NCBI GenBank assembly: GCA_002256435.1
Contig: NKJC01000001.1
Location: 1,240,001-1,304,000, forward strand
DNA from: Chitinophagaceae bacterium BSSC1
GTDB lineage: Bacteria; Bacteroidota; Bacteroidia; Chitinophagales; Chitinophagaceae
DNA: 64,000 bases
Reading direction: 5' to 3'
The stretch's first letter is position 1. Each line of letters opens with the position of its first letter. The notes beneath the pieces are model-generated. The model was given only the letters and a program-made list of their open reading frames with translations. It did not search any database and was not told where the DNA came from. Positions 10,088 through 55,880 of this stretch are shown here, piece by piece. The translations under genes were made by a program, and so were the position numbers.

Positions 10088-13000
10088 TTAAGGCAAATCC
10101 TTCTTTAGTAGCTGATAATCGGTGAGTACCGCTTTAAACTGCTCTTTTAAGTTCTTGGTCATCTGTAATTGTTGGGTAGTAGGCGCAAAATCCGCTCCAT
10201 AGGTCTGAGACTCTTTAGAAATAGCCAAGAGTCTTTCTGCAATTTGAACAGGGTTACGGAAATCATCCCAACGCGCACCGGTTTGATGCGTATCAAATAA
10301 TTTAGACTCCAATACATACACCTGTTGCTCCAAAGCCAAAGATTTGGCAGAGTTCTCTTTCAACAAAGCGGCACGTTTAATCTCCATTTCAGCAATCAGG
10401 TCAAAGCAGGCTTTGATACTTGTCCGCAGATCCTTACCCAAAGCGTACTGAGCGGCAATGGCTTCTTTGGTAGAAGCTGCGTTAGGATCTTGTAACACTT
10501 GCAGCATTTGTTTCTCAACGCCAGCATCGGTTTTGAGCAAGACTTGGTAAGATCCAATAGGAACACGAATAGGCTCCATACCAGGACCAATATCCAAATC
10601 AGGCACAAACATCAAACGGCTACCAGTTGCATCTAATCTTACAAAATCCTTACCCTTGGGTTTGGTTTTCAACGATGGCATTTTCAATTCCTCATGCGCC
10701 AGATCCCACCAGACACGGTTCACACCTTTCAGATTGGTGACCTTGATGGTTTGAATAGTATCGCCCGAAGAGCTTAAAACAAAAACCTTTGGCGCTGTTT
10801 GTAAAGTATCGGCCAAGAAATAATTGATGCTAGCACCATAGGGAGGATTCTCACCCCTAACCGATCCGCCACCGTCGTGATTGGCACCTTTCATATTAAA
10901 TCTGTAAGCAGGACGCAACGGATACAAACTTGTTTTACTAGTAGCCAAGCGTTTGCTCCATTCACGAATAGGTGTAATATCATCCAAGATATAGAAGCCG
11001 CGGCCATATGTAGCCACTGCCAAGTCGCGGAAATTTTTCTGAATAGCCAAGTGATACACCGGCGATGGTGGCAGGTTGTTCTTGAGTTGCAACCACTGAC
11101 CGCCGTCATCAGGACTCACATAGAGCGCATTGTCCGTACCCACAAAAATCAAACCCTTCTGAGCGGGATCCTCTTTTACAAAATGCACAAAGCCACTATT
11201 AGACTCAGGTAATTTCTGACCAATATTGGTCCAGTGTTTACCAAAGTCAGCAGTCTTAAACAGATAGGCTTTAAAATCTCCCTGCTGTTGATAATGCACG
11301 GTCACATAAGCAGTACCCGCGTCAAAATTAGAAGGATCAATATTGCTAATGGTTCCCCAAGCTGGTAGGTTTAAGTTGGCCGTGAGGTTGGTCCAAGAAG
11401 CGCCGTCATTGGTAGTCAGTTGCACTTGACCGTCATTAGTACCCACCCAAATCATTCCTTTTTTAATGGGCGATTCAGCAATGGCAAACAAAGTACAGCC
11501 GTCAAAAGTCATCAGGTTATCCTTTACAACGCCACCAGAACTTTGCTGGTGCGATTTATCATTGGTAGTCAAATCCGGACTAATGACTTTCCAAGTATGA
11601 CCACCATCGGTGGTTTTGTGAACGTACTGACTACCCACATACACTGCACCGCGCTCATGACGCGATAAGGTCATGGGAAAATTCCAATGCCAACGATATT
11701 TCATATCGGCGGGAGCCACACCATAACCAGCTTGAGGCCAAGGGCGCACATCGTGCGATAGACCTGTGCGGGTATCGGTAACATCTAAACCGCCATCGTA
11801 ACAACCAGACCAAATAATCTTAGGATCAAAAGGATCCGCTTGTGCAAAACCACTTTCACAACCACCCACCGATTCCCAATTACTTAATGGGATGCTACCG
11901 GTGCGGCTAATGGCTTCTGTTCTATAAGAATAACCATCCTGTCTATTACCCATGATATGGTAAGGAACCATCTCGTCCAAAGCCACGTGATACATTTGGG
12001 CAATGGGCAGATTTACATTTTTCCAGTTCCTACCACCGTTAAAAGTCATGTTCATGCAACCATCGTGGGCCACCATAATTCTATTGGCGTCTTTGGGGTC
12101 AAACCAGATTTCATGGTTATCGCCACCAGGCGCATAGCTACCATTTCCGTTAAAGGTTTTACCACCGTCTCTGGATTCCATAATGGTGACACTGATAGTA
12201 TACAATTTGTTTTCATCCTGAGAAGAAACACGCACCCTAGTATAATATGGACCACGTTGTGCTAAAGAGTGATTCTCCAACATCAGTTTCCAAGACTCAC
12301 CACCATCGGTAGATTTATACAAACCAGGTGCTTGGGCTTCTACCAAGGCATAAATGGTATTGGGGTTACTAGCGGCTATATCAATACTGGTTTTACCAAT
12401 GATTTTATTTGGACCACCTGGTAAGCCATTGGTCATTTGTTTCCAAGACTTGCCCCCATCGGTAGTTTTATAAAAACCGCTACCCGGGCCACCACTGTTT
12501 AGGTTCCAAGTGTTCATTTGCACCTGCCACATAGCAGCTACTAAATTGTTGGGGTCTTTGGGGTTGATAGAAATATCAGAGCAACCCGTGTTCTCGTCAA
12601 CGAATAAGACGCGGTTCCAACTGATCCCGCCATCGGTGGTTTTGTAAACACCTCTTTCTTGTTGCGGACCACCTGTATGACCCAGTGCCGCCACGTAAAC
12701 AGTATTGCTATCCGTGGGGCTCACCAAGACTTTGCTAATCCGCACGGTATTTTTGAGACCCATATTCTTCCAGGTCTTACCCGCATCAGTGGATTTATAA
12801 ATCCCATTTCCGTTTGGATGCGCCGGTCTAATAATAAATGTCTCGCCCGTGCCCGCCCAAACCTGCTTGGGATTGGATTCAGAAATAGCCATAGCGCCAA
12901 TGGCAGAATTGTCCATATCGTCAAAGACAGGCTGCCAGCTAACTCCCGCATTGCTGGTCTTAAAGATCCCGCCCGATGCGGCACCAACATAAGAGACATT

Positions 13001-13369
13001 GGGATTTCCCGGTTCTCCCACTACTGCGCAAGCGCGATTTCCATCGGGACCCACAAAGCGAAAACGGAGGTTACTAAAGGGATTTTGATCTGCGGAATTA
13101 AAACCAGATCCTTTACCCGTACTGATTCTAGAACTAGTTACAGAACTGATTCCTGAATTGATTCTAGAACTAATTCCTGAACTTGTTCTTGAACTTGTTG
13201 CTGAACTAATTCCTGAACTTGTTCTTGAACTTGTTGCTGAACTAATTCCTGAACCAATTCCTGAACTTTTTGCCCCCATTTGTTGGGCTTCAACTTGGTT
13301 CAAACAAAGACCCATTGCAGCAATGCACCATGCATTCATGCATAGCGCGGCCAAAGCGTTTTTTCTCAT
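10088..13369 (-). CDS. VPS10/sortilin-like beta-propeller protein (glycosidase-like) with Ser-rich repeat linker
   Basis: The likely start is the ATG at 13367-13369 (1,093 residues), which leads directly into a signal peptide (MRKNALAALCMNAWCIAAMG, ending VEAQQ). The frame extends further upstream, but that part looks untranslated. Residues ~30-90 are a four-residue repeat tract (SSGI, SSAT, SSRT) coded by 12-nt DNA repeats. The body consists of Asp-box/VPS10-type blades (KTTDGGKSW, STDAGKTW, KSTDGGESW). These proteins are usually annotated as sialidase/glycosyl hydrolase or VPS10-domain proteins, and many have no proven activity. A helical C-terminal region (~970-1090) follows the propeller. 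A hairpin lies in the leader. Function is inferred only at fold level. Confidence 0.85.
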   Translation of the reverse strand: MRKNALAALCMNAWCIAAMGLCLNQVEAQQMGAKSSGIGSGISSATSSRTSSGISSATSSRTSSGISSRINSGISSVTSSRISTGKGSGFNSADQNPFSNLRFRFVGPDGNRACAVVGEPGNPNVSYVGAASGGIFKTSNAGVSWQPVFDDMDNSAIGAMAISESNPKQVWAGTGETFIIRPAHPNGNGIYKSTDAGKTWKNMGLKNTVRISKVLVSPTDSNTVYVAALGHTGGPQQERGVYKTTDGGISWNRVLFVDENTGCSDISINPKDPNNLVAAMWQVQMNTWNLNSGGPGSGFYKTTDGGKSWKQMTNGLPGGPNKIIGKTSIDIAASNPNTIYALVEAQAPGLYKSTDGGESWKLMLENHSLAQRGPYYTRVRVSSQDENKLYTISVTIMESRDGGKTFNGNGSYAPGGDNHEIWFDPKDANRIMVAHDGCMNMTFNGGRNWKNVNLPIAQMYHVALDEMVPYHIMGNRQDGYSYRTEAISRTGSIPLSNWESVGGCESGFAQADPFDPKIIWSGCYDGGLDVTDTRTGLSHDVRPWPQAGYGVAPADMKYRWHWNFPMTLSRHERGAVYVGSQYVHKTTDGGHTWKVISPDLTTNDKSHQQSSGGVVKDNLMTFDGCTLFAIAESPIKKGMIWVGTNDGQVQLTTNDGASWTNLTANLNLPAWGTISNIDPSNFDAGTAYVTVHYQQQGDFKAYLFKTADFGKHWTNIGQKLPESNSGFVHFVKEDPAQKGLIFVGTDNALYVSPDDGGQWLQLKNNLPPSPVYHLAIQKNFRDLAVATYGRGFYILDDITPIREWSKRLATSKTSLYPLRPAYRFNMKGANHDGGGSVRGENPPYGASINYFLADTLQTAPKVFVLSSSGDTIQTIKVTNLKGVNRVWWDLAHEELKMPSLKTKPKGKDFVRLDATGSRLMFVPDLDIGPGMEPIRVPIGSYQVLLKTDAGVEKQMLQVLQDPNAASTKEAIAAQYALGKDLRTSIKACFDLIAEMEIKRAALLKENSAKSLALEQQVYVLESKLFDTHQTGARWDDFRNPVQIAERLLAISKESQTYGADFAPTTQQLQMTKNLKEQFKAVLTDYQLLKKDLP
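13118..13270. repeat. 12-nt tandem repeat inside the VPS10-like gene
   Basis: About a dozen 12-nt units lie end to end. Clear ones are TGAACTTGTTCT, TGAACTTGTTGC and TGAACTAATTCC at 13178-13213, repeated identically at 13214-13249. More degenerate units extend to both sides. Because 12 is a multiple of three the frame is kept, and each unit encodes four residues of the Ser-rich linker. A perfect 36-nt duplication inside the tract indicates recent slippage. Confidence 0.95.
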
Positions 13370-13373
13370 TGTA

Positions 13374-13397
13374 CTTGTCTTGGTGAAGAAAGACAAG
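13374..13397 (-). promoter_or_regulatory. Inverted repeat in the leader of the VPS10-like gene
   Basis: Arms CTTGTCTT (13374-13381) and AAGACAAG (13390-13397) are perfectly complementary around an 8-nt loop and end four bases before the chosen ATG. In RNA this would form a hairpin next to the start codon, and in DNA it could be an operator. It is the only symmetric element I see in this leader. Function is inferred. Confidence 0.35.
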
Positions 13398-13471
13398 TTA
13401 CTAATAAAATACTTCTCTTCTTTCTTACCAATCAGATACAACAATTCAATCCTACTTCAAACTTGAATCCT

Positions 13472-13732
13472 CTACCAGCGATGCAAGTCTTTGAACTTCT
13501 TGGGAAGCCCTTTGGTAGTTCTCCCTTGGTTCAAGTGAATGGCAATGGGAGCCATTTCAGCTTTATAGACAGCTAAGACCTGATTCACTTTGTCAAGTTG
13601 TAGTGACTTTTTTCCTTGTTCCATATTTCTGATAAAATGCAAGCCCACACCAGACATATCTGCCAAATCCTGTTGCTTATGACCGTAATACCTACGCTTG
13701 TATTTTACAAATTCAACCAATTCCATAATCAT
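13472..13732 (-). CDS. XRE-type HTH regulator (HipB/y4mF-like), no HipA partner
   Basis: This small protein is 86 residues from the ATG at 13730-13732; an in-frame GTG five codons earlier is possible. It has a Cro/C1-type helix-turn-helix (HKQQDLADMSGVGLHFIRNMEQGKKSLQ) followed by LDKVNQVLAVY. This matches the y4mF/HipB antitoxin family, which normally precedes a hipA-like kinase gene. Here the next gene downstream on the same strand is the VPS10-like protein, and no HipA fragment is visible nearby, so it is an orphan or has been recruited as a local regulator. It lies between the VPS10-like gene and the repeat block. Confidence 0.8.
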   Translation of the reverse strand: MIMELVEFVKYKRRYYGHKQQDLADMSGVGLHFIRNMEQGKKSLQLDKVNQVLAVYKAEMAPIAIHLNQGRTTKGLPKKFKDLHRW

Positions 13733-13938
13733 CGTTGATTCAGCCACTAAACTATCATTTATGGAATGCAGCTACAAGTAAATACACTAGAATTTTTAGA
13801 TAGTAAAAAGAGTTTAGCAATACTGAAAGTCAATTCTGTCCTGTGTTTGGGCCGGGGAGTTGTTTTTTAGGAGATGTACTTGGGGGCTGGTTTCCTTTTG
13901 GTGGGTGTTGTGATTTGGGTGGGTTTTAAGGTGAGTTT

Positions 13939-14022
13939 TTGTGGTGTGTGTTTGAGGTGCGTTTATGAGGTGTGTTTGGAGGTGTATTTGGAGGTGTATT
14001 TGGAGGTGTATTTGGAGGTGTG
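13939..14022. repeat. 12-nt GT-rich tandem repeat (TTTGGAGGTGTA)
   Basis: Four adjacent units (TTTGGAGGTGTA three times, then one ending TG) lie at 13975-14022. Degenerate copies (GTTTGAGGTGCG, TTTATGAGGTGTG) extend upstream to about 13,939. The complementary strand is AC-rich and reads His/Thr/Pro/Asn simple sequence. The same AC-rich style recurs in frame in the photolyase and SRAP genes further on. Confidence 0.9.
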
Positions 14023-14140
14023 AGTTCAAAGAGATTGTTAGGAGTAAAATTTTGGATTAGTGTTTGGGTTTTTGTTAGTGGTGAGTGTATTTTGGAGGAG
14101 AAGCATAGTAGTTTTTTGAAGTTTTCAAAAAGGGCGTTTT

Positions 14141-14287
14141 TTATACTTGTTCTAGTATAAATATGGGGGTCCTATTTTATACACGTTCTAGTATAAATTA
14201 AGCACTACGCTCCCCAAAAATGTCTGGCTCATTATACTCGTTCTAGTATAAAATAGACAGCCTGTTTTTATACTTGTTCTAGTATAA
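14141..14287. repeat. Palindrome array 1: four copies of TTATACNYGTTCTAGTATAA
   Basis: The 20-bp copies lie at 14141-14160, 14177-14196, 14232-14251 and 14268-14287. Only the two central bases NY differ: TT, AC, TC, TT. Arms TTATAC/GTATAA are complementary, and the asymmetric core GTTCTA points the same way in all four. Start-to-start spacing is 36, 55 and 36 bp. Copy 4 extends to a perfect 14-bp arm (CCTGTTTTTATACT with its complement) around TGTTCT. A homologous array lies at 55525-55650. No known site type (parS, LexA box, attC, CRISPR repeat) matches. Confidence 0.95.
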
Positions 14288-14326
14288 AAACAGGGGTATT
14301 TTAAAAACACGAAAAAGAGGTTATAC

Positions 14327-14549
14327 TTGAGCAGGATTATTCATGAGCGAGGTTTCACCTGAGCTAGTTCATTCTTGAGCAAGGTTTCACTTGAGTTGGA
14401 TTGAATCAAGATAGGGTTTTGATTGAGCAGGATTATTCATGAGCCAGATTCCCTTGAGCAGGATTATTCATGAGCGAGGTTTCATTTGAATTGAATCATT
14501 CTTGAGATAGATGATTCATGAGCGAGGTTATACTTGAGCAAGGAAGATT
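14327..14549. repeat. 16-bp satellite, 14 tandem units
   Basis: Fourteen head-to-tail units of 16 bp (one of 15) fill 14327-14549. Typical odd units read TTGAGCAGGATTATTC and typical even units ATGAGCGAGGTTTCAC, giving a 32-bp higher-order period. TTGAGC/ATGAGC at the unit start is the best-conserved part. The period is not a multiple of three and the frames are interrupted, so it is not a coding repeat. It begins 39 bp after the last palindrome and ends about 100 bp before the M1 peptidase start. Confidence 0.93.
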
Positions 14550-14652: not shown

Positions 14653-16260
14653 ATGAAAAAGACCTTGTTCATTCTTTGTTGCCTAGTAGCAACCGTTTCT
14701 AATGCTCAGAATAGAGATATCAGCAGCCTATCTTCTGGCGGTAAGTTGCAGCCATTACAGGTCATCATGGATATTCGGCATTACACTATCAACCTCAATG
14801 TAGATTTGACCAATAAAACAATTCAAGGTGCTACTGAGGTAACCATGGTGCTTTCCAAAAACACGGATACTATTTTACTAGATCTGGTGAATCTCTTGAC
14901 CATTCAAAAAGTGAGTGTCAATAATAAAGCAGTGAAATTTGAGCACAAGGATCATAAAATTTATATCACGGCTGCTAGCCCTTTTTTACAAGGCAAGCAA
15001 TTGGTGAAAGTGGAGTATGGTGGTGAACCGCCTATCGCCGTAAGGCCACCGTGGTTAGGTGGATTTACCTTTACAAAAGACAGATCTGGCAATCCATGGG
15101 TAGCCATTAATTGCCAAAAAGAAGGGGCCAGAATTTATACGCCAACCAAGGATCATCCAAGTGACGAGCCCAATGAAGGCGTAGACATGATGATTACGGT
15201 TCCTGATACTTTGGTGGTGAGCGGTCCTGGTCTTTTGCAAAAAGTAACCAAGTCAAAAGGCAAGAAAACCTATCACTGGAAAACCAATTATCCCATGAGT
15301 ACTTATACCATGGTATTCAATATTGGTAAGTTCCATGTTGCATCGGATGAGTATACCACCATCAATGGAAATAAGGTTCCAATTCAATTTTATATTTTAG
15401 CAGAAGACAGTGCTGAAGCCAAAAAAATCATTGCGCTAAAAAAGCGCGATAGTCAGGTGCTAGAAAAATATTTTGGTGAATACCCTTGGGTAAAAGAAAA
15501 GATTGGCATTTGCGCCGTTCCAAATTCTGGTATGGAACACCAAACCAATATCACTTTCCAAAACAAATTCGTTTATACAAAAATTGGGGAGAGTGATTAT
15601 AACGCAAATTTATTTCACGAGTATGCGCACGAGTGGTGGGCCAATAAAGTAACCAATAAAGACTGGGCGCATGAATGGATTCAGGAAGGCATTGGCACTT
15701 ATGCAGAAGCTTTGATCCATTATGACTTGGGTGGTCAAGAAGCTTATGACAAAATTATTGATGGTCATAAACGCTCTATTAAATATATCAAACCCATGGT
15801 AGGTGGTGAAGAAATGAGTGAAGATGAAACCTATGCGCAAACAGATATTTATACCAAGGGTTCATTCTTTATGCATAGCCTTAGATATGTAGTTGGAGAC
15901 GAAATATTTTTCCCAACCCTGAAGAAGTTGGCAACAGACCCCCAATACACTTATGACAATATGGTTACTACTACCGATGTAGAACAATTGTTTAGCAAGG
16001 CAGCTGGCATGAACCTAAAACCCTTCTTTGATTTTTATTGCAGAACAACCAATCAAATAGAAATTGTAGTAAAAGAAGTGGGTTATCAGAAATACAGCAT
16101 TAAAGTAAATAATGCGTTTATGAAATTGCCATTTGAAATCACTAGCTCTGAAGGGGTTTCTAAAATGATGATTGACAAAGAAGGCATTACCATTACTAGT
16201 AAAACGCCTCCACAGGTTGACAACAAAGGATATTATTTGAAAAAAGTGCAAACCTTATAA
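14653..16260 (+). CDS. Secreted M1-family metallopeptidase
   Basis: The 535-residue protein has a Sec signal (MKKTLFILCCLVATVSNAQ). The M1 exopeptidase loop appears as GMEH (canonical GxMEN), and the zinc site is HEYAH with His322, Glu323 and His326. Glu345 follows after exactly 18 residues, the full HEXXH-X18-E signature. It is shorter than typical aminopeptidase N (~870 residues) and lacks the long helical C-terminal domain, as in many Bacteroidota M1 proteins. It probably trims peptides in the periplasm. A paralogue follows after 38 nt in the same orientation, so the two are likely co-transcribed. Confidence 0.92.
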   Translation: MKKTLFILCCLVATVSNAQNRDISSLSSGGKLQPLQVIMDIRHYTINLNVDLTNKTIQGATEVTMVLSKNTDTILLDLVNLLTIQKVSVNNKAVKFEHKDHKIYITAASPFLQGKQLVKVEYGGEPPIAVRPPWLGGFTFTKDRSGNPWVAINCQKEGARIYTPTKDHPSDEPNEGVDMMITVPDTLVVSGPGLLQKVTKSKGKKTYHWKTNYPMSTYTMVFNIGKFHVASDEYTTINGNKVPIQFYILAEDSAEAKKIIALKKRDSQVLEKYFGEYPWVKEKIGICAVPNSGMEHQTNITFQNKFVYTKIGESDYNANLFHEYAHEWWANKVTNKDWAHEWIQEGIGTYAEALIHYDLGGQEAYDKIIDGHKRSIKYIKPMVGGEEMSEDETYAQTDIYTKGSFFMHSLRYVVGDEIFFPTLKKLATDPQYTYDNMVTTTDVEQLFSKAAGMNLKPFFDFYCRTTNQIEIVVKEVGYQKYSIKVNNAFMKLPFEITSSEGVSKMMIDKEGITITSKTPPQVDNKGYYLKKVQTL

Positions 16261-55134: not shown

Positions 55135-55275
55135 TTGAAAAAACCTAAAAAAGAAAACCTACCCCAAAAGATTTGTTTGGTTTGTCAACGGCCCTTTACC
55201 TGGCGCAAGAAATGGGAGAAGGATTGGGACCAAGTAAAATACTGCAGCGAAAAATGCCGCAGAACAAAAGCTTGA
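55135..55275 (+). CDS. DUF2256 zinc-ribbon-like small protein (TTG start)
   Basis: This 46-residue gene reads from a TTG at 55135-55137 to a TGA at 55273-55275; no in-frame ATG exists after the upstream stop. The sequence contains [19 protein letters not shown] and [13 protein letters not shown], the full DUF2256 signature, with two CxxC-like pairs that should bind zinc. DUF2256 genes are regularly found beside TIGR03643 and photolyase genes in Bacteroidota. The 135-base gap after the photolyase suggests it may have its own promoter. It ends where the polypyrimidine tract begins. Confidence 0.88.
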
Positions 55276-55432
55276 TTCTTCACTCTTATCTCTTTACTTT
55301 CCTCTTCTTCACTTTTATCTCTTCACCTACTTCCTCTTCACTTTCTTCTTCCAACTCTTCATTCTCATCTTTTAACTTCTTCTTCCTCATCATTCTTCAC
55401 TCTTGACTCTTATCTCTTCACTTTCATCCCTT
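55276..55432. repeat. Polypyrimidine (CT-rich) simple-sequence tract
   Basis: About 157 bases on the plus strand are almost pure C and T, with imperfectly repeated phrases such as TTCACTCTTATCTCTTCAC. Only scattered A residues interrupt it. Such a strand asymmetry can adopt triplex (H-DNA) structures. It begins immediately after the DUF2256 stop. Confidence 0.9.
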
Positions 55433-55524
55433 CTGTACAACTTTCTGTGCCACCCCCAATACTTCACCCCTTGGAACTAAGTGCTGGCGTACTTGTTTTT
55501 CAGGGTTTTGAAAAAGGGCGTTTT

Positions 55525-55650
55525 TTATACACGTTCTAGTATAAATAAGGGGGTTCTATTTTATACACGTTCTAGTATAATTTATTTTCAGATTTTATAC
55601 TCGTTCTAGTATAAAATAGAAGGGCCGTTTTTATACACGTTCTAGTATAA
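55525..55650. repeat. Palindrome array 2: four copies of TTATACNYGTTCTAGTATAA
   Basis: Copies lie at 55525-55544, 55561-55580, 55595-55614 and 55631-55650, with central bases AC, AC, TC and AC. Spacing is 36, 34 and 36 bp. Preceding AAAAAGGGCGTTTTTTATAC and trailing AAAACAGGGGTATTTTAAAA are the same as at array 1. Sequences between the copies also match in part (GGGGGTTCTATTTTATAC versus GGGGGTCCTATTTTATAC). The two arrays are therefore homologous and in the same orientation. Confidence 0.95.
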
Positions 55651-55880
55651 AAACAGGGGTATTTTAAAAATTAAAAAAGCAACTACACTCCGGAACAAAT
55701 CAATTACTAGAATCGAGAATTATTCGTTGGGACAAGAGATTATTCTGAAGAAGTAATGTAGGTGGTGAGATGATTATTCTGTTGGATTGATCTGGGTGGG
55801 AAGTGATTATTTTATGAATGATGAAGAGGAATGAATCAGTGGCGGTTTGTGATTTTGAGTATCGCCGGAGGCAAATATAT

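Follow-up and report, generated by a model that had tools for sequence, protein, structure and literature searches.

Based on our sequence comparisons, we propose that the 20-bp palindromes recurring in this stretch of DNA are probably operators of an orphan antitoxin of the HipB family, whose gene lies about 0.4 kb from one of their arrays, and we find arrays of these palindromes at 14 intergenic places in the genome. The operator type is a known one in an unusual arrangement: an orphan HipB together with many likely operators in the genome.

Palindrome arrays in the window and across the genome

The window, that is, the whole stretch of 64,000 nucleotides that was analysed, contains two arrays. 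Array 1 (14141..14287, plus strand) consists of four 20-bp palindromes, TTATACNYGTTCTAGTATAA, at 14141-14160, 14177-14196, 14232-14251, and 14268-14287, in steps of 36, 55, and 36 bp; array 2 (55525..55650, plus strand) lies between convergent genes, with four palindromes at 55525-55544, 55561-55580, 55595-55614, and 55631-55650, in steps of 36, 34, and 36 bp. Both were located by motif search with zero mismatches, which reproduces the four copies and their spacing in array 1 and the position and 36-bp outer steps of array 2, as described in the sequence-only reading. The units of array 1 are predicted HipB-type operators by comparison with homologous hipB loci, and array 2 has orthologous arrays (L055 and L063). 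By chance, 0.09 matches to the 20-mer (up to 3 mismatches) would be expected in the window; 12 were observed, representing 8 sites, 4 of which also match in reverse, and all lie inside the two arrays. The palindromes have the form TTATACTTGTTCTAGTATAA, plus AC and TC variants at NN. The variable bases had been read correctly (TT/AC/TC/TT in array 1 and AC/AC/TC/AC in array 2) but wrongly placed at the two central positions, since they occupy positions 7-8 and not the dyad centre. A correlation between copies 1 and 4 had also been suggested; orthologous arrays break this pattern (AC/AC/AC/TT in L056, AC/AC/TC/TT in L055). The constant direction of the core GTTCTA proved to be a strong tendency, although not an absolute one, since two units run the other way, the middle one of L017 and an outer one of L020.

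Each array sits within a repeat element, of approximate extent 14105..14324 around array 1 and 55489..55687 around array 2 (both plus strand). The ends of the first are common, imperfectly inverted stretches of about 36-37 bp, with a score that 1 of 100 shuffles reaches; for the second, no shuffle out of 100 reaches the inverted-end score. Short local repeats, GGTGTGTTTGGAGGTGTATTTGG-like and TGAGCAGGATTATTCATGAG-like, flank array 1 at 13930-14020 and 14330-14540 of the window, and degenerate TTCACTCTTCAC / GTGAAGAGTGAAGAG tracts are found at about 55270-55440.

The window's genome (G000) comprises 4.34 Mb in 6 contigs (C1-C6). The genome-wide search with up to 2 mismatches that had been suggested revealed many arrays with conserved spacing: the 20-mer has 48 exact matches and 70 matches with up to 2 mismatches, 2 of these 70 being reverse readings, which leaves 68 distinct sites grouped in 14 arrays of 1-8 units each (L050 was excluded from all array counts). 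Our script, which reads one strand per array, tallied 67 units because single-strand reading misses the inverted middle unit of L017. Unit-to-unit steps are 36 bp (30 cases), 35 bp (10), or 34 bp (7), with a few of 55-72 bp. The two arrays are thus not a pair, as the window had made them appear, but 2 of 14, and a local duplication is ruled out by this number. No ORF of at least 70 aa contains an array in G000, short ORFs overlapping the array edge in L019 and L023. CRISPR-like unique spacers were not found among the arrays; the 14-16-bp spacers recur between arrays. Contig C2, which makes up 47% of the genome, carries 12 of the 14 arrays (binomial p 0.003, post hoc), and dnaA, at C2:296 kb, lies about 8 kb from one of them. 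A relation of array orientation to the replication axis did not emerge: neighbouring arrays alternate in direction, and the sampled GC skew is noisy and tracks the coding strand.

Copies at non-orthologous places are mostly alike only from about 36 bp before to about 37 bp after the palindromes; in one subfamily (L015, L018, L023, L027, and L028) the likeness extends further and includes heptamer-like tracts. The element ends are imperfect inverses of each other (TACTTGTTTTT... / ...AAAAACAAGTA). In the 38 of 39 arrays tested (the 39th is cut off at a contig end), the inverted-end score averaged 11.1, whereas shuffles averaged 6.7 and the adjoining outer 36 bp 5.8, and in 29 of the 38 the score was met by at most 5 of 100 shuffles, L016 and L024 being among those that failed. 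Degenerate TTCACTCTTCAC / GTGAAGAGTGAAGAG tracts border many arrays (in the flanks of L018, L015, L023, L027, L028, and L059) and recur at the fumC sites of G137 and G155 that lack an array; they are possibly an insertion target or a repeat that spread together with the element.

Gene contexts were tallied by hand from ORF lists, ignoring short unrecognised ORFs. Of 19 loci, 8 are convergent, 7 codirectional, 2 divergent, and 2 unclear (L067 and L069), so that 8 of the 17 classifiable loci have a convergent setting. At 6 of the 7 codirectional loci the array reads in gene sense (two-sided p 0.125). This placing and sense would fit an effect at gene ends, but also a situation in which insertions are simply tolerated there. 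No common pathway is evident among the 28 genes that directly adjoin the 14 arrays; they form a mixed set (fumarase, MetG, photolyase-like, SprA-like, ABC transporters, sulfatase, HigB-like, and others). None of the 28 matches a transposase or recombinase family, 3 of them matching nothing at 1e-5. The arrays of L016 and L025 adjoin toxin-antitoxin pairs (L016:2908-3605 and L025:4264-4994), namely HigB/HigA (PF05015, TIGR02607) and an XRE antitoxin paired with a Gp49-like toxin.

The array pattern with free spacers matches 5 of 147 genomes of the genus: G000, G130, G054, G137, and G155. With the arms alone (TTATACTN6AGTATAA), these five species have 37, 34, 8, 31, and 19 sites, and the remaining 142 genomes have none (135 genomes) or one (7 genomes), like the control. 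By FumC identity, G130, G137, and G155 are nearest to G000, and G054 (two pieces, 97-98%) stands beside G088 (97%). A scan of the collection, which may omit records of the window's own genome, returned 25 stretches. One comes from a Bacillota MAG; the other 24 belong to four Bacteroidota MAGs, which contig coordinates identify as G054, G130, G137, and G155. There was no exact array match among the viral_contigs, and a phage origin was set aside on this ground. For 13 of the 14 arrays an orthologous array exists in another species, and for the 14th (L017) palindromes stand at the same place in G155 and G137. The fumC locus holds an array in G000 and G054 and none in G130, G137, and G155 (intergenic lengths of 79, 158, and 170 bp). 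The unit number also varies at one locus, being 1 in L025, 3 in L054, 3 in L064, and 4 in L051.

Four loci of G155 (L126, L128, L130, and L124) carry single or widely spaced palindromes, some with the cores TATATCGA and TCGATCGA, as well as other inner repeats, AAATCTCGGAGAAA / GGCGGC. Since palindromes there are single or widely spaced, the compact 36-bp arrays may be later arrivals at the same places. An autonomous copy of the element in G155 was considered and rejected: further element ends there belonged to single or widely spaced palindromes, and no transposase was recognised by eye. At the G155 locus corresponding to array 2 (L022), the assembly seems to be interrupted by a tandem GTAGGAAGAAAA tract, with contigs C22 and C9 ending there.

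An orphan hipB gene and the operators of its homologs

Beside array 1 lies an ORF for a HipB-like antitoxin or regulator of 91 aa (13472..13747, minus strand); the start common to relatives gives 84 aa (13472-13726). It matches NCBIfam TIGR03070 (Y4mF antitoxins) with E 1.7e-17 and 63.1 bits, below the curated cut-off of 71.65, and a Bacillota HipB that adjoins HipS and HipT likewise falls below it at 68.6 bits. Near full-length orthologs (68-99% identity) are present in exactly the five array species among the 147 genomes searched, and 20 other genomes have partial matches only (38-52%); this co-occurrence of HipB and arrays may be a single event, since the five species form one group. A search of 5.8 billion proteins at 1e-6 returned 6 clusters, five at 68-95% identity and one partial at 54%. 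Each of the five species has an array upstream of hipB, the nearest palindrome starting 164-435 bp before the gene, a larger distance than in the hipB homologs.

Neither HipA nor HipS/HipT is encoded beside the window hipB. The downstream gene is sortilin/BNR-like (1118 aa; 10088..13444, minus strand; PF15902, E 1.1e-29) and not a HipA toxin, and a gene with the same start follows hipB in G130, G054, G137, and G155. Across array 1 from hipB is a peptidase M1-like gene (535 aa; 14653..16260, plus strand; PF01433, E 8e-18), and a neighbour with the same start is found in G130 and G137. The HipA_C domain (PF07804) has 2 matches in G000, both away from the orphan hipB and each adjoining its own HTH gene, and 0 matches in G130 (92% complete). 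Since G130 has both arrays and hipB, HipA seems unneeded for the arrays to exist.

The recognition helix of the window HipB reads GVGLHFIR. An AlphaFold model built from 7 sequences (mean pLDDT 72, tail below 50) puts the predicted recognition helix at residues 36-43, with His37 at its beginning. A Trp near the C-terminus is kept in all five orthologs and is the last residue in 4. The predicted fold best matches the HipB of Legionella pneumophila, HipB(Lp) (PDB 8ezt, E 8.2e-3; no entry reaches E 0.001), with the E. coli HipB entries lower in the list among other XRE proteins; a sequence search also ranks 8ezt first (E 1.3e-5).

We then compared operators upstream of 26 hipB loci for which upstream DNA was covered (25 of the 29 hits plus the Bacillota one, leaving out G046, G098, G052, and G107), accepting sites with up to 2 arm mismatches and ignoring a few evident chance matches. 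Genes with a GxGLR helix (15 of 26 loci) have sites of the TTATACC..GGTATAA type, often near -15, -55, and -95; those with GVALT (5 of 26) have TTATAT..ATATAA sites; and those with G[VL]GLHF or GIHF (6 of 26, the five orthologs and the Bacillota gene) have TTATACT..AGTATAA sites. The operator type thus appears to follow the class of the recognition helix (Arg, Thr, or His), an agreement rather than 26 independent cases since the classes are clades. In the Bacillota operon, which belongs to the His class, three nearly identical sites, TTATACTYGTTCRAGTATAA, stand 41 bp apart directly upstream of hipB-hipS-hipT. This operon encodes an 89-aa HipB-like protein (TIGR03070), a HipA N-terminal-domain protein (PF13657), and a HipA kinase-domain protein (PF07804), a hipBST-like layout.

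Other hipB genes of the genus have palindromes of the same build upstream, often three, in the form TTATACC-N6-GGTATAA (TTATACCTAAAAAGGTATAA). As a control, this Arg-class operator in its exact form (TTATACCN6GGTATAA) was found 22 times, in 12 of 147 genomes with at most 3 sites each; by coordinates, 17 of these sites immediately precede a hipB match. The 3 kb surrounding four others (one in G050, two in G074, and one in G087) contain no recognisable hipB, and the 22nd (G125) lies outside the neighbourhood comparison. The two sites of G074 (G074:C142:69124-69183, L266) are palindromes 40 bp apart. The paralogous Arg-class hipB of G000 (L243, C2:899000-907500) is followed by small genes other than hipS and hipT; in the G054 counterpart (L244), hipS and hipT follow.

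The sequence-only reading had found no known site type to match, which no longer holds: the build, TTATAC-N8-GTATAA, is that of a HipB operator. In E. coli, HipB binds four cooperative sites with the consensus TATCCN8GGATA (PMC3376134). The likeness to HipBA extends to a palindrome of about 20 bp, 8 bp between the arms, several sites in a row, and an XRE-type HipB, and the arms differ by one base, TTATCC in the E. coli O1O2 oligonucleotide and TTATAC here (PMC3376134). The arrangement differs: in E. coli four operator sites stand at the operon and hipA lies beside hipB (PMC3376134), whereas here there are 14 genome-wide arrays, with steps mostly of 34-36 bp, and no hipA beside the window hipB. 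In Legionella pneumophila, hipBST is preceded by three inverted repeats at even spacing, conserved in the middle, to which HipB binds (PMC10653801), and evenly spaced inverted repeats upstream of hipB are likewise found here. Its authors report no further copies of the operator motif in the Legionella genome apart from one duplicated locus (PMC10653801). The hipBST-like operons of the present genus also differ from the arrays in that their exact Arg-class operator stays at 1-3 sites per genome.

Constraint on the palindromes and alternative explanations

At the hipB locus, 20 units in the five species differ at 1 of 240 arm positions, and units with 2-4 arm mismatches are no commoner than in shuffled DNA; the hipB gene itself diverges with pN 0.01-0.20 and pS 0.30-0.82. 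Among 22 pairs of orthologous arrays, differences were found at 3 of 933 stem, 17 of 468 loop-core, 36 of 156 NN, 222 of 1049 spacer, 215 of 1569 end, and 2529 of 7692 flank positions, a count that leans toward conservation because the arrays were found by a pattern fixing part of the arms. When one pattern-fulfilling pair per array was dropped, the 43 units left, still accepted only with up to 3 mismatches, showed 1 change in 516 arm positions. G137 and G155 depart from the core GTTCTA at the hipB locus; it is retained in other G137 arrays, and those of G155 are mixed. The arms therein appear as the stable part, as would be expected for the half-sites of a dimer. The freedom of the core is one-sided, base 8 changing in 20 of 78 cases and base 13 in 4 of 78. 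Excess pairing beyond the arms was also looked for; of the first seven offsets, only 3 and 6 show it clearly, which disposes of extended hairpin arms.

Several observations speak against operators. A symmetric dimer leaves the unequal freedom of bases 8 and 13 and the nearly uniform core direction unexplained; almost half of the arrays with a classifiable setting stand in convergent gaps rather than at promoters; array 1 starts more than 400 bp from the hipB start, unlike canonical operators; and the inverted ends with an empty site resemble a plain repeat. The palindromes could belong to a MITE- or BOX-like parasitic intergenic repeat, moved in trans by a transposase, without host function and with an accidental linkage to HipB. 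Pneumococcal BOX is a composite repeat, boxA-boxB(n)-boxC, with variable inner units, over-represented between convergent genes (PMC3049150), and the present element shares this composite intergenic build, the variable number of inner units, and the convergent-gene excess. Its inverted ends, beyond which the next 36 bp score no better than shuffles, and the fumC site, filled in two species and empty in three, point the same way. However, old resident copies should decay, yet the arms at the hipB locus are nearly invariant and lack partly decayed units above chance, and the spacers and flanks of the same arrays diverge by 21-33%. In the present element the inner unit is an operator-like palindrome under constraint, for which there is a candidate binding protein, whereas no such protein is reported for BOX in the available part of its description (PMC3049150). 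None of the 28 neighbour genes matches a transposase family, with the 3 unmatched ones noted above, and no clear target duplication was seen by eye, the flanks at fumC being heptamer-like tracts. The Y1 (IS200/IS605-like) transposase (PF01797) is absent from G000 (0 matches; the control was positive in 5 of 14 genomes), which also removes REP/RAYT repeats. We regard a purely parasitic repeat as unlikely. The non-autonomous mobile repeat considered in the sequence-only reading may nevertheless describe how the arrays spread, given the inverted ends and the locus empty in 3 of 5 species, although neither transposase nor target duplication was found.

The palindromes could also form transcribed stem-loop arrays, an RNA regulator or a 3'-end element read on one strand. 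Both window arrays fold better than shuffles (z -3.2 and -3.8), but this does not discriminate, because a palindrome folds whichever strand is read. The nearly uniform core direction, the gene-sense reading at codirectional loci, and the unequal constraint on bases 7-8 and 13-14 would suit such an RNA; the arms, however, keep their sequence beyond what pairing alone would require, and G-U mismatches are no commoner than A-C in the outer arms, so that the strand test by wobble pairs gave no signal. The core altered at the hipB locus of G137 and G155 while the arms stay also weakens recognition of a hairpin loop, and a known RNA found no Rfam match in the 5 of 14 G000 loci searched. The structured RNA raised earlier is thus disfavoured, and we consider it quite improbable. 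Conserved inverted arms around an asymmetric, direction-setting core also have the anatomy of sites for a site-specific recombinase, which the varying unit number at one locus would fit. With direct sites at 14 places, the chromosome between them should be deleted, the hipB locus of G137 and G155 has a different core, and no recombinase is among the 28 neighbour genes, making this explanation highly improbable. What stands from the sequence-only reading is a maintained functional element, an oriented protein-binding array, which the many arrays, the conserved spacing, the constrained arms, and the linked DNA-binding protein all favour.

A proposed role for dispersed, probable HipB operators

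Binding of HipB to the palindromes is likely: a HipB dimer would hold each palindrome via the half-sites TTATACT/AGTATAA, and several dimers would sit side by side on one array. More speculatively, the toxin-less HipB may serve as a dispersed DNA-binding protein, and the occupied arrays may act on their neighbourhood, with gene ends, convergent transcription, or local chromosome structure as candidate effects. A repeat element with inverted ends was probably the form in which the arrays spread, and units were then duplicated or lost. HipB sites have been reported at other E. coli promoters, and parS, matS, and Noc sites are palindromic sites scattered over the chromosome and served by one DNA-binding protein. 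The likeness lies in one (here predicted) DNA-binding protein with scattered palindromic sites; the difference is that the protein here is of the XRE antitoxin family and that its putative sites come in arrays of 1-8 carried in a repeat element.

Our wider scenario is tentative, and we would give it somewhat less than an even chance: a TA repressor was domesticated after losing its toxin, its operators spread in a repeat element to many intergenic sites, protein and arrays came under selection as a chromosome-wide nucleoprotein system, and the Arg-to-His change in the recognition helix marks the operator switch. Antitoxins are usually viewed as local autoregulators. No report of dispersed HipB operator arrays was found in the literature searched at the level of titles and abstract openings. 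If true, the toxin-less HipB with its 14 operator-like arrays would be a clear case of an antitoxin turned genome-wide DNA-binding protein. It would also offer a testable rule, by which one residue of the recognition helix (Arg, Thr, or His) corresponds to the operator, and a natural system in which to study the multiplication of operators and their maintenance by selection far from their gene.
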